From positions 1-48,073 of IMG/VR virus record IMGVR_UViG_3300020000_000025: a DNA stretch of 48,073 bases, one strand, 5' to 3'. The notes beneath the pieces were generated by a model, which made no database searches, was not told the origin of the DNA, and was given only the letters and a program-made list of their open reading frames with translations. A program made the position numbers and the translations under genes. Positions 7,477 through 47,002 of the stretch are shown here, one piece after another (within the stretch, counting starts at the first letter, position 1; every line of letters begins with the position of its first letter). The stretch comes from a virus.

Positions 7477-7482
7477 AAAATT

Positions 7483-7740
7483 ATGAAATATATATTAATT
7501 ATCGCAGCAATCATTTTTTCAAGTATAGTAAACGGGCAGACAAGCAAGGATACAACAGCTAAGAAAATAAAAGTCCCGGTTGACACAGCGTATATACTTG
7601 GTGGCAATATTCCAGACTTCCAATTGTTATATAAAGCAATCAATACTCCCGGATCGGTGACAAGAGATGAAATAAGTGTATTGCTGGCATGGCTACAACA
7701 AATTAAAATGGTTGAAGTACCAAAAAAACCAAAACAATGA
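7483..7740 (+). CDS. Small secreted protein
   Basis: 85 aa. The signal peptide MKYILIIAAIIFSSIVNG is followed by Gln. The mature part is short, Lys-rich at both ends and without a recognised domain. It overlaps the next gene by 4 bases (ATGA). It is the third of four adjacent Q-rule secreted proteins, so it probably acts with them in the periplasm or at the surface. Confidence 0.6.
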   Translation: MKYILIIAAIIFSSIVNGQTSKDTTAKKIKVPVDTAYILGGNIPDFQLLYKAINTPGSVTRDEISVLLAWLQQIKMVEVPKKPKQ

Positions 7741-8168
7741 AAACAATATTAGCATTACTCCTCTTGATTTCTTTTAGCGCAAAATCTCAAGTGAACACAA
7801 GACTTGATACTGTGTATGCTCGCTTTAGAGTGTTTACCTATGAAGAGTTAAGTTATATAAAAGGAGGATGGACGCCAAGAGATTCAGCCGAAAAGAAATT
7901 CTTTAAGAAAATGCAAGTAACAGTAAATGCAATTTCAAATAAGGTCAATTCTACAAGTATTACTATTGATAGCATACCTGGAGCAATTGCAATTTTGTGG
8001 TATTCAAACTTCAGGTCTGCACAAGAAGGAGAGACGGCGGGATTCACAAATAACATAAAGAATGTCATAAAAGGCTACACACCTTTAAACTCAACTTGTG
8101 TTGTTATTGATAATTCACTAGACGCAAAGCGAACAAACATAGTTAAAAACGGTAAAGACGATTGGTAA
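7737..8168 (+). CDS. Small secreted protein
   Basis: 143 aa. The signal peptide MKTILALLLLISFSAKS is followed by Gln. The mature protein contains a Tyr-rich segment (TYEELSYIKGGW) and no catalytic signature that I recognise. Overlap by 4 bases with the preceding gene implies coupled translation. A role with the neighbouring exported fibre-like proteins is an inference. Confidence 0.6.
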   Translation: MKTILALLLLISFSAKSQVNTRLDTVYARFRVFTYEELSYIKGGWTPRDSAEKKFFKKMQVTVNAISNKVNSTSITIDSIPGAIAILWYSNFRSAQEGETAGFTNNIKNVIKGYTPLNSTCVVIDNSLDAKRTNIVKNGKDDW

Positions 8169-8186
8169 AAAATTAAAATTTAATAT

Positions 8187-8492
8187 ATGGCAAAAGCAAT
8201 TCACAATCCGAAACCGACACATGGCACTCCTACAAACAACATACCTGCCCCAGAAGGGCTTATAGCTACCATTAAATCAGATGGGGTACTTCTACAATGG
8301 TACAGCGTTCCATTTGCAACAACTTATTGGGTTTCCAGAAGTGACAGGGAAGCATTGGGCGAAAAAGCTATCGCAATTATTACCGGAACAAGTTTTACTG
8401 ATCATTATCCCGTTGCCGGAACGACTTATAAAGTTGCTGCGGTTGTAAATAGTAATCTTGGAAATTTTTCAAATCCGGTAACCCCAATATAA
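8187..8492 (+). CDS. Fibronectin type III-like small protein
   Basis: 101 aa, no signal peptide. Residues ~20-101 read as a single fibronectin type III-like domain: PAPEGLIATIKSDGVLLQW, then a YWVSRS strand, then TTYKVAAV and a final strand. Such domains are frequent on phage virions and may bind carbohydrate surfaces weakly. Its last base overlaps the start of the next gene. Unlike its four upstream neighbours it appears cytoplasmic. Confidence 0.55.
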   Translation: MAKAIHNPKPTHGTPTNNIPAPEGLIATIKSDGVLLQWYSVPFATTYWVSRSDREALGEKAIAIITGTSFTDHYPVAGTTYKVAAVVNSNLGNFSNPVTPI

Positions 8493-8782
8493 TGGGAACA
8501 AAATTTGATGCACTATTTAAGGCGTTTAAAGACAATCCGACTGCTGCAATTATGACGTTGCTAGTAATTGGCATTTCTGTTATGTTTACTATTAATCAAA
8601 AAACAAATTCTAGTGTTCAGGATGATCTAAGGAAAGCAAATAAAGATTGTGCTACTGAAAAATATGTCGTTCAGGTTCAGGTGGAACAATTAAGAGGGCA
8701 AATTGTTGATTTAACCGGAGCATTCAAAGAACTTAAAGGAGAGATGAATACACTTAGAAAACTTGGTATCGTAAAAGAATGA
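8492..8782 (+). CDS. Membrane-anchored coiled-coil protein (possible i-spanin-like)
   Basis: 96 aa. One membrane segment at ~17-34 (AAIMTLLVIGISVMFTI) is followed by a charged helix with coiled-coil character (VEQLRGQIVDLTGAFKEL). This topology fits an Rz-like inner-membrane spanin or an accessory lysis protein. It overlaps the next gene, a lipoprotein, by 4 bases, and i-spanin/o-spanin pairs are often arranged this way, though the lipoprotein is larger than typical. An alternative is a membrane-anchored partner of the secreted proteins. Confidence 0.45.
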   Translation: MGTKFDALFKAFKDNPTAAIMTLLVIGISVMFTINQKTNSSVQDDLRKANKDCATEKYVVQVQVEQLRGQIVDLTGAFKELKGEMNTLRKLGIVKE

Positions 8783-9540
8783 GAAATTTAATCTACATAT
8801 TGTTTGTTTTTGCTTCCTGCAATAGTAGTTCTGAAAAAGCAAATCCAATACCTATAAGTAATAAACCTTTAACTGATTCTATTTCGTTAATAGTTGACAG
8901 TCTGCAAGAGTGGACAGATGACCTTTCAAATGTTTCTGATTATGCTATCAAAGCTCAGTCTAAAATTAATCAGTTACAAAAAGAGAACAAAGAACTTGCT
9001 CAAAGAGCAGGAGAGAGTGAACCACTAGCTTTTAAGTTTAACGAATACCCAGATAATAGAGATAAGCAAATAAGCGATTTAATTACTGAACTTTCTGCTC
9101 TTAAAAAAGAAAACGTAAGGCTTAGGAAACGTATTGAAGCAGATAGTTTAATTAAGTACGGTAAGATAAAGCCGATGCCTGATTATATCGACCAAGTGCC
9201 TAACGAATTAAAACCAAACGATAAAAGTTTAATTGTTACCTTAAATAAGAAATTACGTGGTGATGGTGACATTTCTGAACAGGGTGTAAGTGTTTGGATA
9301 ATGAAGTACACCAAAGACGCTAAAAAGGCTTTTAAGGGGTATGAAAGTTGTCAGCAAAAAGACTTAAATTTATTAAATGCTAAAGAGGCTAATTACTATC
9401 AGGGTCAGTATTTTTTCAATGATGTAGAACCTGGGAAGTATTTAATAAAGGTCTGTGCTTTGTTTGGAAACTGGATGGTGATTAATAAAAAGGATTATAA
9501 ACAGGAGATAGAAATGTTGATGTCTCCACCTATTCAATAA
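8779..9540 (+). CDS. Predicted lipoprotein with coiled coil
   Basis: 253 aa. A short lipoprotein signal ends at Cys14 (LFVFASC) and is followed by the Ser-rich stretch NSSSE, a pattern seen in Bacteroidetes lipoproteins. Residues ~60-120 form a coiled coil (INQLQKENKELAQ; LSALKKENVRLRKR). A C-terminal domain of ~120 residues (~135-253) with beta strands (YLIKVCALFGNWMV) is of unknown function. It lies in the lysis block; partner of the membrane protein before it or an outer-membrane factor in lysis or exclusion are inferences. Confidence 0.5.
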   Translation: MRNLIYILFVFASCNSSSEKANPIPISNKPLTDSISLIVDSLQEWTDDLSNVSDYAIKAQSKINQLQKENKELAQRAGESEPLAFKFNEYPDNRDKQISDLITELSALKKENVRLRKRIEADSLIKYGKIKPMPDYIDQVPNELKPNDKSLIVTLNKKLRGDGDISEQGVSVWIMKYTKDAKKAFKGYESCQQKDLNLLNAKEANYYQGQYFFNDVEPGKYLIKVCALFGNWMVINKKDYKQEIEMLMSPPIQ

Positions 9541-9554
9541 CTAAAAATTAAATC

Positions 9555-9848
9555 ATGGCAACAACAGTAACAACTTCAAAAAGGTTTTCTCTTAATTGGC
9601 AAGACATTTGGAAGGGCTTGAAAATGGCTGTAATACTTCCTGCGCTAACTACAATCTACACTTCTTTAGAAGCCGGTAAGTTAGATTTTGATTGGAAGAC
9701 AATAGGAATGACAGCAGCTTTGGGTTTTATTGGTTACTTGATTAAAAATTTCATAGCCCCGCCTGAGATCGTAATTAAAAATCCAAGTGAAAGTTCTATC
9801 GAAGCTGTAAAAGATGGAACGGCTGAAGCAAAAGTTGTGACTAAATGA
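9555..9848 (+). CDS. Candidate holin
   Basis: 97 aa with two hydrophobic segments, ~22-38 (LKMAVILPALTTIYTSL) and ~48-68 (IGMTAALGFIGYLIKNFIAP), and a charged C-terminal tail. Small two-helix membrane proteins of this kind lie next to endolysins in Bacteroidetes phages and are commonly annotated as holins. It overlaps the spanin candidate by 4 bases (ATGA). A second two-helix protein at 10441 is the competing holin candidate. Confidence 0.5.
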   Translation: MATTVTTSKRFSLNWQDIWKGLKMAVILPALTTIYTSLEAGKLDFDWKTIGMTAALGFIGYLIKNFIAPPEIVIKNPSESSIEAVKDGTAEAKVVTK

Positions 9849-10387
9849 AAAGGAAACCGCCAAAATTTATATTATACGCTATACTGATTTTTCTTTTAGC
9901 GGTTGCAATCTTTGGCTGTAACACAGAAAAGAAAGCGTTGTCCAAAACTCAGCTTTATCTTTTTAAACATCCTGAATTTTCTGCGGGTTATTGCGCTGAA
10001 CAATTTCCTGATAAACCGGATTCGGTTATTATCAAGACAGATACTTTAATTGAGATAGCTACAATGGATTCTTTAGTTTACGATACGATTTTATTAAACC
10101 ATGACACGACATTAATAAGAACGATTGTAAAAACTCAAAAGATTTACATTAAGAGAGATTCAATCATTTACAGGGAGAACAGAGCTGAACAGGAACGATT
10201 GCAGTTAGCTTTATTTGAATGCCAGAAAAACGCAGGGCTGATATTACAGGAAAACAATAACCTAAAAGCATCTTTAGCTACATGGAGAAAGACAGCAAAT
10301 ATCCGTTGGTGGTGGATAGCTCTTTTAATCGGTGGATTTGTTGGAACGATTGCTATAAAAATATTCGGAAAACCTAAAATCGTTTAG
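9845..10387 (+). CDS. Candidate unimolecular spanin (u-spanin)
   Basis: 180 aa. The N-terminus has a basic start, a hydrophobic stretch and a lipobox-like IFGC (Cys25; Phe at -2 is unusual). The middle is Asp/Thr-rich beta-like (KTDTLIEI, HDTTLIRT) followed by a helix. The C-terminus has a clear membrane segment (~155-175, WWWIALLIGGFVGTIAIKIF) with a basic cytoplasmic tail. An outer-membrane lipid anchor at one end and an inner-membrane helix at the other is the defining layout of T1 gp11-type u-spanins, which fuse the two membranes at lysis. Position between holin candidates and endolysin supports it. Confidence 0.6.
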   Translation: MKRKPPKFILYAILIFLLAVAIFGCNTEKKALSKTQLYLFKHPEFSAGYCAEQFPDKPDSVIIKTDTLIEIATMDSLVYDTILLNHDTTLIRTIVKTQKIYIKRDSIIYRENRAEQERLQLALFECQKNAGLILQENNNLKASLATWRKTANIRWWWIALLIGGFVGTIAIKIFGKPKIV

Positions 10388-10437
10388 CGGGGTTAACATT
10401 TAAATCTTCCGGGTGGCGGTTGCCTCGCTAAATTTTT
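10383..10437 (+). terminator. Terminator-like hairpin overlapping the spanin stop codon
   Basis: TTTAGCG (10383-10389) pairs with CGCTAAA (10426-10432), with further G-C pairs inside and five T after. The TAG stop of the spanin candidate lies in the 5' arm. It may act as a partial terminator between the spanin candidate and the second candidate holin. Confidence 0.55.
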
Positions 10438-10440
10438 ATT

Positions 10441-10641
10441 ATGAAAGATGCCCGTAAAATAATAGTCTTAATGTTTGCCCTTACTATTTGTGCTATAATG
10501 GTAGCTATTATTTCATCTTGGATTTATTACGGATCAGCAAAGCCTGAATCGGTTAATATTTTAGGACATTTAATTGATACAATGTTAGGGGCTATAATTG
10601 CTTATTTAATGCTTAAACCAAATGATACAAACAACACTTAA
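10441..10641 (+). CDS. Small two-helix membrane protein (alternative holin)
   Basis: 66 aa. Two hydrophobic segments, ~8-28 (IVLMFALTICAIMVAIISSW) and ~41-58 (GHLIDTMLGAIIAYLML), joined by a short loop, with a charged N-terminus and polar tail. Size and topology fit a class II holin or an antiholin partner. It overlaps the next gene by 20 bases. Confidence 0.5.
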   Translation: MKDARKIIVLMFALTICAIMVAIISSWIYYGSAKPESVNILGHLIDTMLGAIIAYLMLKPNDTNNT

Positions 10642-16514: not shown

Positions 16515-16882
16515 CTTCAGACAAACTAAAAATAAAAGCCGATAAAATGCAGTCCTTTCTGGAGCAAAAGCCAAGCGATCAGGAGGAGGGAATTATTGAC
16601 AGGTTAGAACTTTTACAAATCCTAATGGCTCAGTCAGGAGATTGTTTGGCTAATGCTAAATACCTTTTAGACATGAGAAAAAACGATTCAATAACACAAT
16701 CTTTAAAAGATGCTTTGGCGGGTGATTGGTCAACTACAATCATTCATAAAAAGATTGATGCTTTATGTCGGGAAGAAAACTTTTTAGTTAATAGATTTGA
16801 CAGGATCAATAGTTCAGCCGTTCATCAGATTGATGCCCTTCGTTCAATATTAAGTTATCGTAAAGCGCAAATGAGTTTATAA
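16511..16882 (+). CDS. Hypothetical helical protein
   Basis: 123 aa, all-helical, heptad-like (DKMQSFLEQ; VHQIDALRSILSYRKAQ). Shares its last base with the NinG start. Not recognised; an accessory recombination or replication factor is possible from context. Confidence 0.5.
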   Translation: MTSDKLKIKADKMQSFLEQKPSDQEEGIIDRLELLQILMAQSGDCLANAKYLLDMRKNDSITQSLKDALAGDWSTTIIHKKIDALCREENFLVNRFDRINSSAVHQIDALRSILSYRKAQMSL

Positions 16883-17244
16883 TGGCAAAAGTAAAAAGTT
16901 TACCGGCTCTTTTAAGACAGGCTCAGCAAACATTCAACCGATGGATAAGGATTCGTGACCACGAAAAAGGCTGTATTTCATGCGGTGCAAAAGTAACCGA
17001 AGCGGGGCATTATTATTCTCAAGGGCATCACTCTTCTTTACGGTTTAATGAAGTTAATACGAATGGACAATGTACGAGGTGTAATTGTTTTCTTCACGGC
17101 AATTTGATTAATTATAGGAACGGTCTTTTAAGTAGATACAAGCAACAAGATTTAGACCTTTTGGATTCTGTTGCAACAAGAAACCCAATTAGGAGATGGT
17201 CAAGGGAAGAACTTAAAATAATTATTCAAACATATAAGCCATGA
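16882..17244 (+). CDS. ninG: NinG/Rap-like recombination endonuclease
   Basis: 120 aa, shorter than lambda NinG. FNRWIRIRDHEKGCISCG gives the first Cys pair (31, 34); AGHYYSQGHHSSLRFNE is the His-rich core; GQCTRCNCF gives the second Cys group (64-69), then GNLINYRNGL. This is the NinG (Rap) signature, a zinc-containing structure-specific endonuclease acting on recombination intermediates. Part of the rightward replication operon; overlaps the next gene by 4 bases. Confidence 0.85.
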   Translation: MAKVKSLPALLRQAQQTFNRWIRIRDHEKGCISCGAKVTEAGHYYSQGHHSSLRFNEVNTNGQCTRCNCFLHGNLINYRNGLLSRYKQQDLDLLDSVATRNPIRRWSREELKIIIQTYKP

Positions 17245-17438
17245 GCGGAACAATAAAACTTTTACTTCCCAACGGAACAAAAGAAAAAGAGGTTCATTAT
17301 TATTCAACTCAGGAATGGAAGTCTTTAATTAATACATGGATTGAATTATACGGGACAAGGATTGAGAATTATTTTATTCACATAGTTCCAGACAGGCAAA
17401 CAGATAGATTTTTAGAAACCAAAAACAAATCAAAATGA
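17241..17438 (+). CDS. Small hypothetical protein
   Basis: 65 aa with beta strands at the start (GTIKLLLPNGTKEKEVHYY) and an aromatic helix (EWKSLINTWIELYG). Overlaps NinG and the following gene by 4 bases each. No family recognised. Confidence 0.5.
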   Translation: MSGTIKLLLPNGTKEKEVHYYSTQEWKSLINTWIELYGTRIENYFIHIVPDRQTDRFLETKNKSK

Positions 17439-17746
17439 AGCTAATAAGGGAAATGTCCTTAGTAAAGGATCGGGTGAAGGCTTTGTTAGTTAAGCATCCA
17501 CATTTAAGAGATGATGATAATAAATTGATTGCAACTATCTGGAAGTTTCAGTTAATTAAGATGGATTTAGACCCAAACACTACACCGACTTATAACTTTT
17601 TTGCTCTTTATTCACAAAGGAAATTAATCAACGCCGAAACAATTCGCCGTGTCCGACAAAAGATACAAGAGGAAAACCCAGAACTAAGGGGAACGGTGAA
17701 TGAGGCAAGGCAAAAGGAAGGTGAAGCGGTACGCAAAACAATTTAA
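17435..17746 (+). CDS. Conserved-type phage hypothetical protein
   Basis: 103 aa. The pattern HPHLRDDDNKLIATIW, then FFALYSQRKLINAETIRR, then RQKIQEENPELRG recalls a recurrent hypothetical protein of phage replication regions (basic, helical, likely DNA-associated). Starts 4 bases inside the previous gene. Function not established. Confidence 0.55.
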   Translation: MKLIREMSLVKDRVKALLVKHPHLRDDDNKLIATIWKFQLIKMDLDPNTTPTYNFFALYSQRKLINAETIRRVRQKIQEENPELRGTVNEARQKEGEAVRKTI

Positions 17747-17757
17747 AAATTAAAAAT

Positions 17758-18111
17758 ATGACCAAATTTAATCCAGAAAATAAAGAGGTTTTAACCTATG
17801 GCGAAATACTTGACTCTGCCATGAATATTACAGATAAGAAGGACGCTATGCAATACAAAGCAGCGTACATTGATTATATTCAGAAAGCATTAGATAAAGA
17901 AAATAAAGATGGTCACACAGCTTTAGAAATTGCTAATGCTAATTTTGGTTATTGGGCGGGGTATGGTAGTGATAAAACAAGAGCAAGAATTGAAGAACTG
18001 TTTGAATGTTCGCATCCCGTTTTTGGCAGCATTAAATTAAATGGTTCTCCATCAAATGAAAAAGCATTATCTATGGGTATGCAAGCCGGAGCAAAATCAA
18101 AAAATAACTAA
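17758..18111 (+). CDS. Conserved-type phage hypothetical protein
   Basis: 117 aa. Helical N-terminus (DAMQYKAAYIDYIQKAL), a NFGYWAGYGS turn, and a C-terminal CSHPVFGSIKLNGSPSNEKA segment of a kind I associate with Bacteroidetes phage hypothetical proteins. Function unknown. Preceded by an AT-rich spacer, followed 1 base later by a lipoprotein gene. Confidence 0.6.
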   Translation: MTKFNPENKEVLTYGEILDSAMNITDKKDAMQYKAAYIDYIQKALDKENKDGHTALEIANANFGYWAGYGSDKTRARIEELFECSHPVFGSIKLNGSPSNEKALSMGMQAGAKSKNN

Positions 18112-18112
18112 A

Positions 18113-18385
18113 ATGAAATTCCTAATCTTCTTACTTTTAGTATGCCTGATTGCTTCCCTTTGTTCCTGTTCAAAACCAGAACAAACCGAAGGCCAATGTT
18201 TAATAATTTCTTTGAAGTACACAACAGCCAAAGTCTTTTTAAAAACCGATACCCTTTACAACGATTACCTTACAGGGCATTGGTTTGAGGTATTTGTTGA
18301 GAATAAGAAGTATTGGGATTTAGACACAGGGTTTCGGGTTTGTGATCGGGATTTATTTGAGAGAAGGTTGTATGTGATAAAATAA
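18113..18385 (+). CDS. Small lipoprotein
   Basis: 90 aa from ATG 18113; an earlier in-frame start at 18041 lies inside the previous gene and lacks a signal. The signal peptide MKFLIFLLLVCLIASLCSC ends at a lipobox Cys followed by SKPEQTEG. The mature part is a small beta-rich domain. Phage-encoded lipoproteins in early regions often act in superinfection exclusion; that role here is an inference. Confidence 0.55.
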   Translation: MKFLIFLLLVCLIASLCSCSKPEQTEGQCLIISLKYTTAKVFLKTDTLYNDYLTGHWFEVFVENKKYWDLDTGFRVCDRDLFERRLYVIK

Positions 18386-18387
18386 AT

Positions 18388-18421
18388 TTTGTTTACTAAC
18401 TGTTATTTTATAAATTAGCGT
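18388..18421 (+). promoter_or_regulatory. Rightward promoter with TTAGCGT extension (second copy)
   Basis: TTTG (18388-18391), 19 bases, TAAATTAG continuing to TTAGCGT (18415-18421). It is identical in layout to 15076-15109. A CGTAC/GTACG dyad (18419-18423 with 18431-18435) sits at the expected start point and could be an operator. It would transcribe the leader and the replication-initiation-like gene at 18525. Confidence 0.65.
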
Positions 18422-18423
18422 AC

Positions 18424-18524
18424 ATTTTTAGTACGGATTTTGCAGATGATAGAACGACCTTTGCAAAATCTTTTTTAAGATTAAATAGTCGGTAAGGAAG
18501 TCGTTCTCCAAGCCGGCTTTTTTT
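18424..18524 (+). promoter_or_regulatory. Structured 5' leader with pseudoknot potential
   Basis: GATTTTGCA (18436-18444) pairs perfectly with TGCAAAATC (18462-18470). The loop contains AGAACGAC (18451-18458), which pairs perfectly with GTCGTTCT (18500-18507), so the RNA can form an H-type pseudoknot. A rival hairpin AATCTT/AAGATT (18467-18482) breaks the first stem. AAGCCGGCTT and seven T lie directly before the ATG at 18525. The layout suggests a switch on translation or early termination. No known riboswitch was recognised. Confidence 0.5.
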
Positions 18525-19325
18525 ATGGCTAAAGACCCAGCAGTTTTATTTTATACTTCTGATTTCCTTTCTGGAACATTTACAATGACAGATGATCAGG
18601 TCGGTAAATACATTCGTTTACTTTGTTTACAACATCAAAAAGGCGGTCTTTCTGAAAAGGATATGCTTAGCGTATGCAAAGCGTATGATGAGCAAGTGTT
18701 TGACAAGTTTGAGAAAGAAGGCAATATTTTCTTTAATAAAAGGATGAAAGAAGAATCTGAAAAGCGTAAAAACTTTTGCGAATCAAGAAGGAAATCAGCA
18801 CAAACTACTAAAAACCAAACTAATAACTCAAAAGCATACGCTAAGCGTATGGAAAATGCAAATGAAAATATAAATGAAGATGTAAATAGTAATGGAAATG
18901 CAAATTTTGGAAAGTATGAAAACCTTTTAATCATTCCGCAAATGTTGAACGTTTTCAAAAAGCACAATCCTAAATACCTTTCAGATAAAAACAAAGACTA
19001 CAAACCTCTTTTTTCTATTGCTCAATTTTTTTGCACTCAGGCAGGTTTTAGTGGTACTCCAGATCAGCATAATTTACCAATACTTGAAACATGGGAAATA
19101 ATTTCTAAAATAATCGCAAAGGATAATTTTTATTCAAGTAAAACATTGCTTACAATTTCAAATCAAATTCAATCAATAACACAAACAGCTATACATGGGA
19201 AACCAACTACAAAAAACGGAAAACAACAAGATTATGGCTCTAAAGAAAGAGGCCAACAATATGACGGGATGCTTAATGAACGCTATGGAAACGGGGGATC
19301 AGCAACTGGTAAAGACGCTGCTTAA
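18525..19325 (+). CDS. Replication initiation / DUF1376-like protein
   Basis: 266 aa. The N-terminal ~90 residues (MAKDPAVLFYTSDFLSGT; TDDQVGKYIRLLCLQHQKGG) match the opening of DUF1376 / replisome-organizer type proteins, which carry a winged-helix-like fold and start phage replication. A low-complexity Asn-rich linker follows (~95-125), then a helical C-terminal region. Preceded by a dedicated promoter and structured leader. The downstream DUF6633-like gene overlaps its 3' end, a likely functional pair. Confidence 0.6.
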   Translation: MAKDPAVLFYTSDFLSGTFTMTDDQVGKYIRLLCLQHQKGGLSEKDMLSVCKAYDEQVFDKFEKEGNIFFNKRMKEESEKRKNFCESRRKSAQTTKNQTNNSKAYAKRMENANENINEDVNSNGNANFGKYENLLIIPQMLNVFKKHNPKYLSDKNKDYKPLFSIAQFFCTQAGFSGTPDQHNLPILETWEIISKIIAKDNFYSSKTLLTISNQIQSITQTAIHGKPTTKNGKQQDYGSKERGQQYDGMLNERYGNGGSATGKDAA

Positions 19326-22670: not shown

Positions 22671-23138
22671 ATGGCTTTATTTAACATCAAGATTGAACGG
22701 GTGATAATAAACTGTGAACCTGAAAAAGAAAACACAGGGGAATCTTATTTATCTTCGCTTTCAATTTATGATGGAAAATTATTATTAACTAACTTAAAAG
22801 GAAAATTAAAAATCATGGCACTTTCAATGACCGACACACAGCAAGCATCCGGTACGCTTGCTTTTGTTGACAAACACGGACACACAACAGACGTTCCCGA
22901 TGGTAATGTAACGGTAACATCAAGCGACGAAGCTGTGGCTACTGCTACTTATGATGATCCCACAAACACAATCACCGTTAAGGCTGTTGCTCCGGGTGTG
23001 GCGGCTTTGACAATAAAAGCTACAAATTCAAAAGGTGATGATTTGCCTTTTGAAGATGTCGCTATTGAGATTAAATCAGGTGATGCAACAGGTGGGACAA
23101 TTACGTTTGGCGAACCTACTGAACAACCGGAAGCCTAA
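22671..23138 (+). CDS. Bacterial Ig-like (BIG2-type) protein
   Basis: 155 aa from ATG 22671. Residues ~50-135 look like one bacterial Ig-like domain (ASGTLAFVDKHGHTTDV; VTSSDEAVATATYDD; KAVAPGVAALTIKATNSKG). An in-frame ATG at 22815, with an AT-rich leader, would give just this domain; the 48 residues before it are a distinct basic segment (MALFNIKIERVIINCEPEKE). Ig-like domains often decorate phage heads or tails. The protein ends in a Thr/Glu-rich tail. Both starts may be used. Confidence 0.6.
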   Translation: MALFNIKIERVIINCEPEKENTGESYLSSLSIYDGKLLLTNLKGKLKIMALSMTDTQQASGTLAFVDKHGHTTDVPDGNVTVTSSDEAVATATYDDPTNTITVKAVAPGVAALTIKATNSKGDDLPFEDVAIEIKSGDATGGTITFGEPTEQPEA

Positions 23139-23163
23139 AATTTTTGTGGTTAATGGTTTTTTG

Positions 23164-23192
23164 AAACCGGATATTTCCATATTCGGTTTTTT
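23164..23192 (+). terminator. Intrinsic terminator 1 of a tandem series
   Basis: AAACCG plus ATAT (23164-23174) pairs with ATAT plus CGGTTT (23179-23189) around TTCC, with one unpaired base per side, followed by T. It ends the Ig-like transcript. Confidence 0.75.
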
Positions 23193-23255
23193 GTATTATA
23201 TTTAAATCTGATAAGAGAAGGGGTTAGAGCCTTCCCTACAGTCAACTTCTGATCC

Positions 23256-23285
23256 CTCCCTATTTCTATAGGGAGATTCTTTTTA
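23256..23285 (+). terminator. Intrinsic terminator 2 of a tandem series
   Basis: CTCCCTAT (23256-23263) pairs with ATAGGGAG (23268-23275) around TTCT; ATTCTTTTT follows. A smaller CGGT/ACCG hairpin with four T follows at 23294-23310. Confidence 0.7.
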
Positions 23286-23337
23286 GAGTAAAGCGGTTAG
23301 TTACCGTTTTCATAAACTTGGTTTGTTTTAATAGTAA

Positions 23338-23368
23338 AGTCGAATTGTTTCTACATTTCGGCTTTTTT
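23338..23368 (+). terminator. Intrinsic terminator 4 of a tandem series
   Basis: About nine of ten bases of AGTCGAATTG (starting ~23338) pair with CATTTCGGCT (23354-23363), then six T. Counts the small hairpin at 23294 as the third of the series. Confidence 0.7.
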
Positions 23369-23420
23369 GTTATCTTCATATTATTAAGATTGTTTATGCT
23401 CAATAGAGCGAGTTATTTTA

Positions 23421-23448
23421 AAACCCTGTATTTTTATATAGGGTTTTT
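23421..23448 (+). terminator. Intrinsic terminator 5 of a tandem series
   Basis: AAACCCT (23421-23427) pairs with AGGGTTT (23440-23446) with an inner TAT/ATA, followed by T. Together with the preceding hairpins it fills 23139-23488, a stretch with no convincing gene. Confidence 0.65.
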
Positions 23449-23488
23449 ATTATCTTTAAATAATAACAAACAAAAAAAAACTCAAATC

Positions 23489-23671
23489 ATGGAAACATCA
23501 ACTCCAACTATTGAAATATTAATCAATGAAATAGAAAGCAGAATTTCAGAATATGAAAACGCTGCTGAAGAATGTTATCAAGAACTTGGTAACGAAGAAA
23601 GGGGGAATGAGTATTCTGCTAAAACGGAAGAATTAAGAGACCTTCTTAAATTCATCAATGGGGGATTATGA
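23489..23671 (+). CDS. Small acidic helical protein
   Basis: 60 aa from ATG 23489 (AAAACTCAAATC leader); upstream in-frame starts would run through the hairpin series and are rejected. Helical and acidic (EILINEIESRISEYENAAEE). It overlaps the first glycosyltransferase gene by 4 bases and opens the glycan cassette. No family recognised. Confidence 0.5.
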   Translation: METSTPTIEILINEIESRISEYENAAEECYQELGNEERGNEYSAKTEELRDLLKFINGGL

Positions 23672-43150: not shown

Positions 43151-44908
43151 ATGCCTAAAATAATTTTTACTCCTGAAGAACTTGCTTACTACTTTGACCC
43201 TTCTTACAAGTCAGAGATAGGAGTTAAGTCTAAGGAATTTGAAACCGATTTCCGTATTCATGCGGACGGGATATTCCCCGATAAAATTATTTCTCAGGCA
43301 AGACCTAATGAGAGTACAGAAGTATTTAATTACAGGAAAACTATTTGGCAACCAAAAACAAAACCATCTTTTAATAAAGTATTTTCTTCACTTCAAAAAA
43401 TCCGTAGGAGTTCTGATTGGTCAGTTAAATTCAATGAAACAAGTTTTAAAATACCCGAAGGTGAGACTTTAGAAGATTACTTAACTGCTTACTATCCTAA
43501 GTTTGAAAGTTTAGAGAAGTATATGTTTGACGTTTGGCTTCGTGAATACTTAATAGACCCTAATGCGGTTTGTGCAGTTTTTCCAGGTGAGGCAAAAGAA
43601 GAAACAGAATTTAAAGAACCGATTGCGGAGATATTTAATTCCTGCTTAGTAGTATTTTTTAAGTCAGAAGATTACGTTGTACTTAAAAATCCTTTGGGAA
43701 CAACGTTCAAAGACGATAGGGGCAATGAACACGACGGAGATTCTTATTATATCTTAACAACTACTCAGTATTTAAAATACGATCAGATTAACGTTAAAAG
43801 GGAATTTAAGTTAGTTTCTGATATTGACCATGAAATTGGTTATTTACCGGCTTGGAAATTGGGAGGAGTTTTGATTAAATCTTTGGACGGTGAACTTTTA
43901 TACGAAAGTAAAATAGCTGGTATGCTTCCAGAGTTAGACGAAGCAGTTAGGGAGTATTCAGATTTACAAGCTGCGGTTATTATGAACATCTTTCCTGAAC
44001 GTTGGGAAATGGCAACGGCTGAATGTAACACTTGTCACGGTACGGGTAAGATCACAAACCAAAACGAATCAAGCGGTTTTAGTTCGTGTAATAATCCTAA
44101 TTGTGTGGCAGGGTATGTTGTAAGCCCTTATTCTAAAGTCTTGGTTAAACCGGCTGATATAGGTCAACAGATGGCAATTCCTCCGGTTGGTTATGTGGAA
44201 AAGCCTGTTGAGATTGTAGAACTTCAGGATAAGAGGGTTGAAAAACATATTTACAATGCTCTGGCTGCGATAAATATGCAATTCCTTTCCGATGTTCCTT
44301 TAGTTGAATCAGGATTAGCGAAAGGAGTGGACAGGGACGAGGCGAGTAATTTCGTTCACTCAGTCGCCGAGGATTTAGTTAATTCAATGGAGCAAATTTC
44401 TTACAATGTTTCTATTTTAAGATTCGGGGTTCAGCACTCAGAAACTGAGATTGAAGAAATGCAACCGGAGATAACTGTTCCTGAAAATTTCGATTTGTTT
44501 TCTATCAAGTTGGATGAGGAAGAACTTCAGAACGCAAAAACTAATAAATTAAATCCGGCTATTATCAATGAAATGGAAATTGAGTACGCAAATAAAAAGT
44601 TTGCGGGAAAACAAGAGATTCAACAAAAACTTTCTGCGGTTTTAACTCTTGATCCTTTGGCGAATGTTTCCGAAGATGACAAAGCAATGAGGCTTACAAA
44701 TAACGGTATCACTCAAGAAGATTACATTCTTTCTTGTAATATAAATTCATTTGTGGAAAGGGCTATAAGCGAGAATCCGAATTTCTTAGTTTTAGATACT
44801 AAACAACAAAAGGAAATTCTTTTAACTTACGTTGCTGAAGTAACCGAGAAGGCTACAATGAAAGGACAACTTACAAAAGAGCAAGAGTTAGCTAATGCCG
44901 GATTATAA
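43151..44908 (+). CDS. Portal protein with zinc-finger-like insertion
   Basis: 585 aa, typical portal length, directly followed by a MuF-like head protein as in many phages. Residues ~292-325 contain a DnaJ-type cysteine array (CNTCHGTGK ... CNNPNC), unusual within a portal. After it come a long helical part and an acidic C-terminus. The portal forms the dodecameric DNA channel at one capsid vertex. Identity comes from synteny, size and general layout. Confidence 0.7.
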   Translation: MPKIIFTPEELAYYFDPSYKSEIGVKSKEFETDFRIHADGIFPDKIISQARPNESTEVFNYRKTIWQPKTKPSFNKVFSSLQKIRRSSDWSVKFNETSFKIPEGETLEDYLTAYYPKFESLEKYMFDVWLREYLIDPNAVCAVFPGEAKEETEFKEPIAEIFNSCLVVFFKSEDYVVLKNPLGTTFKDDRGNEHDGDSYYILTTTQYLKYDQINVKREFKLVSDIDHEIGYLPAWKLGGVLIKSLDGELLYESKIAGMLPELDEAVREYSDLQAAVIMNIFPERWEMATAECNTCHGTGKITNQNESSGFSSCNNPNCVAGYVVSPYSKVLVKPADIGQQMAIPPVGYVEKPVEIVELQDKRVEKHIYNALAAINMQFLSDVPLVESGLAKGVDRDEASNFVHSVAEDLVNSMEQISYNVSILRFGVQHSETEIEEMQPEITVPENFDLFSIKLDEEELQNAKTNKLNPAIINEMEIEYANKKFAGKQEIQQKLSAVLTLDPLANVSEDDKAMRLTNNGITQEDYILSCNINSFVERAISENPNFLVLDTKQQKEILLTYVAEVTEKATMKGQLTKEQELANAGL

Positions 44909-45833
44909 TGAACTAATAAAAACTATTGACGATGCTATAAATGGCTTCAATGATTCTATTCCTAAGATTCAAAAAGAAATACTTGCCGATGTTTTAGACC
45001 AAATAAAAAAGTTTGACACAAGGGATAAAAGGATCACGAATACGGTCAAGAACATTCGACTGCTTAACACTATTAAAAACCGTTTAAAGAAAATTATCTT
45101 AACTGATAATTACAAGAGTGAAGTAAAAGAGTTTCTAAAGGTTTTTACCGATGTTTCCACTTTCCAAAACGCTTACTTTGCTGAAGCTGAAAAGAACTTT
45201 AAACCTCCTGCTATTGTAAAGGAAATAAAATCCCAAACTATTGAGGACACCATTAACCGTTTAACTGAAGCCGGAATAGGGGTAAATGTTTCCGATAAGA
45301 TTGCTGAACTATTAAAACAAAACGTTACAACAGGAGTTAAATATTCTGACTTAGCCAATCAGCTACGGGAGTATATTTTAACAACCGAAACGCCTGGAGT
45401 TCTTGAAAGATACGTTAAACAAATAGCCACAGATTCGGTTAATCAATATTCGGCTCAGTACATGAACACGATATCAGGCGATTTGGGTTATGAGTGGTTC
45501 AGGTATCAGGGGAAAGATATTTTAACGACCCGTCCCTTCTGCGATGCTATGACGGACAGAAAGTTTTTCCACATTTCAGAAGTTCCCGATTTGTTAGAAG
45601 CCAAAGACCTTTATTATTCAAGTGAGGAAGGACAAAAGCCAGTTCCTATTTATGAAAAGACAGGACTTCCAAACGGAATGATACCGGACACAAATGCAGA
45701 AAATTTCTTTGTTAGACGGGGAGGATATAATTGCGGTCATCAGGCGTTCCCGTTAATAGAAAGATTAGTACCTTCGGAAGTAAAAGAAAGAGTATATGCA
45801 ACAGCAGCTTACAAGAGATGGAAACAGAGTTAA
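44895..45833 (+). CDS. MuF-type minor head morphogenesis protein
   Basis: 312 aa. The C-terminal half has DILTTRPFCDAMTDRKFFH (~206-224) and FVRRGGYNCGHQAFPLI (~272-288), the Mu gpF-like head morphogenesis pattern. The N-terminus is helical. It overlaps the portal gene by 14 bases. Its last codons (VPSEVKERVYATAAYKRW) have a related second copy after the HNH gene, so the present 3' end was probably brought in by that gene. Confidence 0.75.
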   Translation: MPDYNELIKTIDDAINGFNDSIPKIQKEILADVLDQIKKFDTRDKRITNTVKNIRLLNTIKNRLKKIILTDNYKSEVKEFLKVFTDVSTFQNAYFAEAEKNFKPPAIVKEIKSQTIEDTINRLTEAGIGVNVSDKIAELLKQNVTTGVKYSDLANQLREYILTTETPGVLERYVKQIATDSVNQYSAQYMNTISGDLGYEWFRYQGKDILTTRPFCDAMTDRKFFHISEVPDLLEAKDLYYSSEEGQKPVPIYEKTGLPNGMIPDTNAENFFVRRGGYNCGHQAFPLIERLVPSEVKERVYATAAYKRWKQS

Positions 45834-46308
45834 GCAAATTCCTGATTATCCAGATTATTTTATAACAGAAGGTGGTGCAGTTTGGAGTGATAAAAGTAAT
45901 AGATGGTTAAGGTTTAATATTGGCAAAATGGGCAAGGGGTATAAGAGAACTGCATTAGGAAATGATAAATGGCTTGTTCATAGATTGGTCGCTTTGACTT
46001 GGGTTAAAAATCCAGAGAATAAAAAGCACGTTAATCATAAAGACGGTAACACATTAAATAATCATTACACAAATATTGAATGGTGTACGCCGAAAGAAAA
46101 TATTGAACATTCATGGGCAATAGGAACAACCAAAAGAAATGCTTTCCATAATTCAAATGAAAATAATCCGAAGGCCAAATTAACTAACTGTCAAGTTTTG
46201 GCAATCAGGAAAAGCGAATTAACGACAAGACAATTAGGTGAAATTTTCGGGGTTGACTACGGGTTAATTGGCAGGATAAAAAGATTTGAACGGTATAAAA
46301 ACGGTTAG
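45796..46308 (+). CDS. NUMOD4-HNH homing endonuclease invading the MuF 3' end
   Basis: 170 aa. NUMOD4-like start (VKQIPDYPDYFITEGGAVWS), HNH core (VNHKDGNTLNNHYTNIEWC, ~79-97), C-terminal helix-turn-helix (VLAIRKSELTTRQLGEIFG). It starts 38 bases inside the MuF gene, and a decayed MuF end follows its stop. It is a mobile gene that inserted into the MuF 3' region. Confidence 0.85.
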   Translation: MQQQLTRDGNRVKQIPDYPDYFITEGGAVWSDKSNRWLRFNIGKMGKGYKRTALGNDKWLVHRLVALTWVKNPENKKHVNHKDGNTLNNHYTNIEWCTPKENIEHSWAIGTTKRNAFHNSNENNPKAKLTNCQVLAIRKSELTTRQLGEIFGVDYGLIGRIKRFERYKNG

Positions 46309-46376
46309 TTCCTAAAGATATTCAGGACAGGGTTAAGGCTACGGCGGCTTATAAAAGATTTCACAATTCCAAATAA
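46308..46376 (+). pseudogene. Orphan C-terminal remnant of the MuF gene
   Basis: In frame from 46308 to TAA 46374-46376 it reads VPKDIQDRVKATAAYKRF then HNSK, matching the MuF ending VPSEVKERVYATAAYKRW then KQS. It has no start codon of its own. It is best explained as the original MuF 3' end left behind when the HNH gene entered with its own version. Confidence 0.75.
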
Positions 46377-46455
46377 ACCCCATAACTTAGTTTAGGATTT
46401 TTCAAGGAATACAATATATCAAAGATAAATATTTATGACGCAGAAAAATCCTAAT

Positions 46456-46906
46456 GGCGGGACACTCTTAAAATATTAAATTCATGCGTTTTCTTATAAG
46501 GCTGTTTTATGTTAAATCGCAGCATTTATTTTGTAAGTTTTTTATACAAAATAAATTTAGGGAAGTTCTTTAAAATAAAAAAGCGGCCACTCAATTTGGG
46601 TGTGCCGCTTTCGACCTTAGAATAGTCTCAAGATGATTTGGAGTAAAATAATCAGGTAGATTAAGAACCTTACTGACATTGTAAACTCCATTTTGCACTT
46701 CATACTGCGAAAGTTTAAAAGTGTTATGAGCTATTAGCCAGTTATACATCAACTGACTCAAAGGTTGAGCAACCGATGTATGATTGCTCCAATTAAAAGC
46801 TATTTCAATATGCGTGAAGTAGCTTTTTTATTTTAAAGAACTTTGTGCGTTGGCCTGACATTTAACATCAAAACAATTATAACGAAAACGCATTCCTTGT
46901 CCCGCC
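46456..46906. ncRNA. Large structured non-coding element, ~450 nt
   Basis: No convincing ORF. Nested long-range helices: P1 GGCGGGACA (46456-46464) with TGTCCCGCC (46898-46906); P2 ATGCGTTTTC (46484-46493) with GAAAACGCAT (46884-46893); P3 46504-46516 with 46861-46874, one bulge; P5, 22 perfect pairs, 46563-46584 with 46822-46843. Local hairpins: P4 ATTTATTTTGTA/TACAAAATAAAT (46524-46556), AAGCGGC/GCCGCTT (46581-46610), ATACATC/GATGTAT (46744-46781) around GGTTgagcAACC, and AAAAGCTA/TAGCTTTT plus T6 (46795-46829). Unequal internal loops favour RNA over transposon ends. Strand is not settled; most genes here run rightward. The flanks 46377-46455 and 46907-46985 hold nothing else I can name. 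Confidence 0.7.
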
Positions 46907-46985
46907 AATAAGTTTTGGGGTTTATTTTGGCCATGTACTTAACATAATGTATAAGATAATTTTTATTATGTTAATTAGAAATTCT

Positions 46986-46993
46986 TATATTTG
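46986..46993 (+). promoter_or_regulatory. TATATTTG -7 element before the 47003 gene
   Basis: TATATTTG matches the Bacteroidetes -7 box; the expected -33 region is only TTTA/TTTT-like. The ATG at 47003 follows after 9 bases, so the leader would be very short. Confidence 0.4.
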
Positions 46994-47002
46994 GTAAAAA
47001 AT

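Follow-up and report, generated by a model that had tools for sequence, protein, structure and literature searches.

We identified a non-coding cassette of ~560 bases between late structural genes of an uncultured phage, in which nested pairing across positions 46369-46931 gives a long branched hairpin in the fold of the window (the whole stretch of DNA analysed, 48,073 nucleotides). The reading that we favour, at about even confidence, is that the cassette represents a new, rare family of large structured late-operon RNA in uncultured phages, presumably transcribed. Two complete relatives and one partial relative were found in other phage contigs, and the paired arms of the complete members change together while the fold is kept.

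Fold and genomic position of the element

The stretch 46369-46931 had a folding energy of -189 kcal/mol and z-scores of -12.6 and -12.8 on the two strands, and the top-ranked inverted repeat within the 48-kb window lies inside it. A preliminary description of this DNA had placed a large structured element at 46456-46906. That stretch is indeed structured (z of -9.65 on the plus strand and -12.76 on the minus strand against dinucleotide shuffles), and the fold z-scores and the covariation reported below support the element as such, but its limits were drawn too narrowly, with a closing helix of 20 pairs (46369-46389/46909-46930) and a 12-bp hairpin (46392-46454) falling outside them. Every one of the nested helices that it listed (9, 10, ~13 and 22 pairs) was present in the fold, namely P3 with 9-10 bp (46455-46464/46898-46907), the 10-bp helix (46484-46493/46884-46893), a run of 6+6+9 bp (46494-46517/46860-46882), and the perfect 22-bp repeat (46563-46584/46822-46843), as was the 19/4-nt internal loop (46465-46483/46894-46897). 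The parts are listed here, where L069, L070 and L071 are the other members of the family and L004-L008 the closest relatives of the window phage, all described below.

46369-46931, plus (from the direction of late-gene transcription): whole fold-back cassette; nested pairing, fold z-scores, absent from L004-L008
46369-46389, plus: P1 5' strand, outermost helix, 20 pairs; the duplicated head-gene end has its stop codon (46375-46377) within this strand
46392-46454, plus: P2, a 12-bp side hairpin placed by the fold at the first three-way junction; L069 and L071 have a different, equally perfect 13-bp hairpin at this position
46455-46464, plus: P3 5' strand, TGGCGGGACA; covaries with 46898-46907
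46465-46483, plus: asymmetric internal loop, A-rich 19-nt side; faces TCCT at 46894-46897
46484-46499, plus: P4 (ATGCGTTTTC) and P5 (TTATAA) 5' strands; pairing and covariation, P4 being swapped en bloc on both arms in L071
46500-46502, plus: GGC side of the GGC/A internal loop; the same in all four members
46503-46517, plus: P6 (TGTTTT) and P7 (ATGTTAAAT) 5' strands; pairing and covariation
46524-46556, plus: P9 side hairpin with loop AGTTTTTTA; its 12-bp stem shows covariation in L071 and L070
46563-46584, plus: P10 5' strand, 22-bp perfect repeat; doubles as the tail of a minus-strand terminator-like hairpin, 46579-46612
46612-46794, minus: apical loop, variable interior; holds most of a 78-codon frame, and the interior is unrelated in L069, L070 and L071
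46822-46843, plus: P10 3' strand; doubles as the tail of a plus-strand terminator-like hairpin, 46795-46827
46860-46875, plus: P7 and P6 3' strands with a C bulge at 46869; pairing and covariation
46877-46893, plus: P5 and P4 3' strands with a single-C bulge at 46883; pairing and covariation
46894-46897, plus: internal loop, TCCT side; TCC retained in all three complete members
46898-46907, plus: P3 3' strand; covariation
46909-46930, plus: P1 3' strand; pairing

Only one other stretch was equally extreme in a sliding fold scan of the window and five related contigs. This stretch, 23001-23500 of the window, was considered as a sibling element and dropped, as it held only local hairpins of the terminator type. 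Within it, the intergenic positions 23140-23470 carry several local hairpins and terminator-like stems and gave the strongest scan signal (z of -4.5); part of this region is ~75% conserved in a related contig (G004, locus L025), and a small RNA is possible there.

Upstream of the element are a head-morphogenesis-like gene (44895-45833) and an HNH endonuclease gene (45796-46308; matching Pfam HNH_3 and PHROG 59), the latter followed on its 3' side by a duplicate of the final ~60 bases of the head gene (46300-46361) that is 92-97% identical to the head-gene end of L004-L006 and L008. The element starts within the last codons of this duplicated end, so that P1 includes the stop codon. The second copy is closer to the head-gene end of the relatives than is the window's first copy, and 45796-46361 has the look of a homing event in which the inserted DNA supplied a replacement for the 3' end. 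The element is followed by a 113-aa ORF and then a scaffold gene, and the other end of the contig continues with scaffold and capsid; from this position beside the head genes, a putative role in the virion or in packaging may perhaps be read, and the other family members lie at other late-gene positions. The HNH gene and the element are both absent at this site from L004-L008, the closest relatives (5/5; head protein 86-94% identical), and in L005 a 65-aa ORF with a terminator-like hairpin behind it fills the same slot, indicating that the gap takes up extra DNA in this phage group.

Directly upstream of the 113-aa ORF, TATATTTG at 46986-46993 is a Bacteroidota-type -7 box, with TAnnTTTG in L004-L008, which suggests a promoter restarting late transcription past the slot. 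Promoter boxes of this type and gene style together indicate that the host group is probably Bacteroidota. The contig ends (1-741 and 47333-48073) overlap in content at only 91.5% identity. It would seem, then, that two or more strains contributed to the assembly and that the contig runs all the way round a genome that is circular or circularly permuted.

Relatives and covariation

To find relatives we searched with an arm-centre pattern in which bulges were allowed (TGCGTTTTC, TTATAA, TGTTTT). The pattern recovered L069 (both arms, in inverted orientation) and L070 (one arm), and the core pattern added L071. The elements of L069 (5079-5513) and L071 (10460-10974) are complete, and L070 starts inside P2 at a contig end, with P3-P9 present on the left side and no right arm within 6.7 kb. 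The family spans ~440-560 nt, and its members have in common the central motif TTATAAGGCTGTTTTATG / AATTATAACGAA and one architecture: a long stem (P1, P3-P7 and P10) with the side hairpins P2 and P9, the GGC/A and A-rich/TCC loops and a variable apical loop. L069 and L071 gave the same architecture when each was refolded alone (z of -9.9 and -10.4). P2 and P9 are restricted to the 5' side in all three complete members, each of which starts at or adjoining the upstream stop codon, and all four members are oriented in the direction of the late genes.

The L069 and L071 phages (contigs G009 and G011) are related, with terminases 89% identical, and have the element at different sites. In L071 it lies directly before the tape measure gene, a site at which G009 has small genes instead, and in L070 it lies ahead of the terminase. 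The window phage and the L069 phage share a module of ~86% DNA identity, which indicates that their lineages have exchanged DNA. As judged from these contigs, the element has changed both its site and the phage that carries it, its apical-loop sequence differing between phages. The shared ~2.2-kb small-gene module itself (window 7479-9631, G009 16665-18804) encodes several proteins that are 95-99% identical between these otherwise distant phages against the 86% at the DNA level, suggesting strong purifying selection. Just ahead of the tape-measure-like gene of L071, at 9705-10457, lie two successive frames that look like a frameshift pair for a tail assembly chaperone, the second ending in the stop codon at which the element begins.

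The family appears to be rare. No record carried more than one copy of the element, and nucleotide queries with the window, L069 and L071 elements gave only weak, short matches in the phage and plasmid collections, which we took as chance. A match in a Lak phage had neither the core nor the partner arm on inspection. The pattern GGCGGGACA...TGCGTTTTC matched viral contigs 15 times, never with an inverted partner, and L072/L073 and L074-L084 matched one short pattern only; both results were set aside as chance. The 20-base P10 tail as a query had no match, and profile searches with each arm over all collected loci gave no further member.

Covariation was counted in an arm alignment of the three complete sequences (window, L069 and L071) with shuffle and slide controls; the count is not tree-based. 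Two-sided changes were counted at 26 of the 88 pairs, compared with 9.0 +/- 2.4 in shuffled controls, none of which reached 26 (0/500), and 2-5 when the partners were slid by 1-3 columns. Standard pairs filled 94.3% of the alignment cells against 40-48% after sliding, a figure that is favoured by taking the structure from folds of the same sequences; the misalignment of the window P2 works the other way. The changes can be followed stem by stem: P3 occurs as TGGCGGGACA/TGTCCCGCCA, TACAGGGGCA/TGCCCCTGTA and TACAGGGTCA/TGACCCTGTA, P4 as ATGCGTTTTC/GAAAACGCAT or GAAAAAGATTC/GAATCTTTTTC, and the P9 hairpin as ATTTATTTTGTA or GTTTGTTTCGT. The preliminary description had asked for a covariation test on homologues, and in those found here the paired arms do change with compensation. 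Matched-pair changes that keep the fold are good evidence that the folded strand is under selection, as far as three aligned sequences speak to it, and such a signal would be expected equally from folded single-stranded DNA.

RNA or folded DNA

The pair types bear on this choice. G-U pairs made up 3 of about 254 pairs in helices P1-P7 and P9, against 12.5% in folded shuffles (binomial P of 0.001 if 5% is expected and 0.05 if 3% is, weaker if the sequences are non-independent), and the P3-P9 core had 31 two-sided and 2 one-sided pair differences. Compensatory changes are commonly believed to go via G-U, and template switching in replication, which can alter the two strands of a stem in a single event, has been proposed to create and mend hairpins (PMC8794818). 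The scarcity of G-U pairs and the 31:2 ratio are unusual for RNA-level selection alone and suggest that the arms are maintained at the DNA level. We infer a template-switch-like rewriting of both arms, which lie further apart than in most cases of PMC8794818; concerted rewriting of this kind would fit a function in RNA as well as one in DNA.

If the element is a late-operon RNA, it would be read through within the late polycistronic transcript, and the RNA would fold during synthesis, at the upstream stop codon. The long P1 duplex could then shield it or be the place where it is excised, RNase III being one candidate enzyme, and the RNA would work late in infection, either free or attached to the mRNA. 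The apical loop would tolerate foreign sequence, spread would be moron-like through the exchange of intergenic slots between phages, and the Watson-Crick bias would arise at DNA replication, when a template switch within the hairpin rewrites the arms. This reading is supported by the 26 two-sided pairs of 88, the same architecture in L069 and L071, the asymmetry of the side hairpins and internal loops, the constant orientation (4/4) and the start at a stop codon (3/3), and also by a left-arm reading frame that is not conserved and whose changes track the pairing. The orientation with the late genes, the stop-codon position and the conserved asymmetry all seem to point to RNA. Counted against it are the minus strand, which folds as well as the plus, the single arm of L070, the unpaired columns, which are no better conserved than the paired (0.76 and 0.78), the failure to match any Rfam family, and the number of complete sequences, three. 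Terminator-like hairpins within the element, on the plus strand in the window and on the minus strand in L069, argue against an efficient full-length transcript of the strand concerned; the L071 element had none.

A real possibility, though one that we hold with less than even confidence, is that selection acts on DNA, the element being a non-autonomous, MITE-like fold-back mobile element whose arms would form a cruciform or, in single-stranded DNA, a hairpin. The conserved TTATAAGGCTGTTTTATG core would be the feature recognised by an enzyme of the host or the phage, hairpin-templated replication or repair would keep the arms complementary, as template switching has been proposed to do in creating and mending hairpins (PMC8794818), and the apical loop would be captured cargo. 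Nearly all pairs are indeed Watson-Crick and both arms change together, sometimes blockwise (P4 of L071), while the interior is unrelated in each member. The preliminary description had warned of a transposon with these repeats as its ends, and the comparison of insertion and empty sites is in line with part of this: the insertion is absent from the close relatives L004-L008 and stands at different sites in the related phages G009 and G011, the former having other genes at the site of the latter. The outermost repeats, however, are not conserved in sequence, the window P1 being unlike that of L069 or L071 although each is self-complementary, so that the part usually most conserved in a transposon is here the least conserved. 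No target-site duplication was visible by eye in the flanks of the window, L069 or L071, whose exact ends are uncertain, and no transposase was seen among the classified window proteins, which are a minority of the whole. The single copy per record, the strong 5'/3' asymmetry and the constant orientation with late transcription also stand against a fold-back DNA element, but orientation is not decisive, as it may equally reflect strand-specific insertion.

Extended further, this would make the element an undescribed class of mobile element defined only by its folded strand, with no enzyme and no conserved ends or cargo, in which hairpin-templated repair rewrites the arms in concert at the DNA level and maintains a near-perfect Watson-Crick rod that moves between the late-gene slots of DNA-exchanging phages; we regard this as rather unlikely.

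Coding functions explain less. The preliminary description saw no convincing ORF, and we agree: the loop holds a minus-strand open frame of 78 codons (46591-46827) that lacks a start codon and scores 3.0 bits for codon usage against 23.7 +/- 8.0 for the genes of this phage. Open runs as long occurred in 7% of Markov controls. The 78-codon peptide had no family and no relative in the viral, phage, plasmid or genome collections, and a single-sequence AlphaFold model of it was of low confidence (pLDDT 53), and we therefore rejected the frame as a gene. A query with the head protein against bacterial genome contigs likewise returned nothing. It is thus improbable that the element is a moron-type cassette built around a small minus-strand gene or antisense RNA, whose terminator tails would form the 22-bp helix by default and whose other pairing would be incidental insulation. 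Such a cassette would fit the terminator-like hairpins that flank the window loop, the minus-strand one in L069, the 71-aa minus-strand ORF in the L071 loop and the 65-aa ORF of L005 in the same slot, but the L069 loop has no comparable ORF, L071 has no terminator, and the covariation of P1-P9 is left unexplained.

It is more doubtful still, to the point of being very improbable, that the left arm is conserved as the start of a gene for a small basic or hydrophobic peptide (MRFLIRLFYVKSQ...), since the plus frame from the ATG in P4, although open in the window (29 codons), L070 (74, with a hydrophobic tail) and L071 (60), is closed by a stop in L069 after 11 codons and varies in step with the pairing rather than the codons, the window-L070 differences being mainly amino-acid changing and matching base-pair exchanges in P9, and P4 being replaced en bloc with its partner in L071. 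At L070 40-264 the left arm continues into a 74-aa ORF with a hydrophobic stretch and its ATG inside P4, possibly a gene made from half an element. We treat the element as non-coding and its interior as variable filler or cargo.

Comparison with known families

The preliminary description had raised GOLLD and ROOL as possible families. Searching Rfam with cmscan gave no relevant match for the window, for L069-L071 or, at E<=5, for 46300-47000, where the one match was to an irrelevant microRNA, and the GOLLD and ROOL covariance models matched none of these sequences. GOLLD and ROOL are often, though not always, encoded near phage tRNA genes, and the window has no tRNA or tmRNA. Like GOLLD (RF01998) and ROOL, which are large, ornate, covarying phage RNAs without known function (PMC12286853), the element is large, ornate and covarying and occurs in phage. 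It differs from them in its shape, essentially a single long rod that bears two side hairpins and ends in a variable apical loop, in having no Rfam match, no tRNA genes in the window and almost no G-U pairs, and in its location between late structural genes. OLE RNA is likewise a large structured RNA named for its elaborate fold, but it is bacterial and is not known from phage late operons (PMC12286853), and the element has no Rfam match. A group I or group II intron was rejected, as Rfam gave no match and the element lies between genes and does not interrupt one.

Among DNA elements, MITEs and palindromic repeats resemble it as short non-autonomous fold-back insertions with a variable interior and no enzyme of their own; unlike them, it occurs once per record with no target duplication seen, its ends are not conserved in sequence, its orientation is fixed, its stems diverge with compensation and its asymmetric side hairpins are kept. 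Integron attC sites are folded single-stranded DNA recognised by structure with little sequence, through bulged bases and a variable terminal structure. The element is similarly bulged with a variable terminal structure, but it is much larger and branched, and R and L boxes were not recognised by eye. Phage morons also fill an intergenic slot that relatives leave empty or give another small gene, whereas the element has no convincing gene and its conserved part is a structure. We found no mention of such an element in open-licence papers. The best reading, based on fold and covariation, is that it represents a family beyond the curated RNA families of Rfam and would work like a large structured phage RNA.

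Large structured phage RNAs such as GOLLD and ROOL are an open problem, for which an additional, independent family in late structural operons would provide another test case. Strong covariation with a near absence of G-U pairs may also make it a natural system in which to test template switching against stepwise compensation in long stems, and the search pattern and core motif let the family be found elsewhere.
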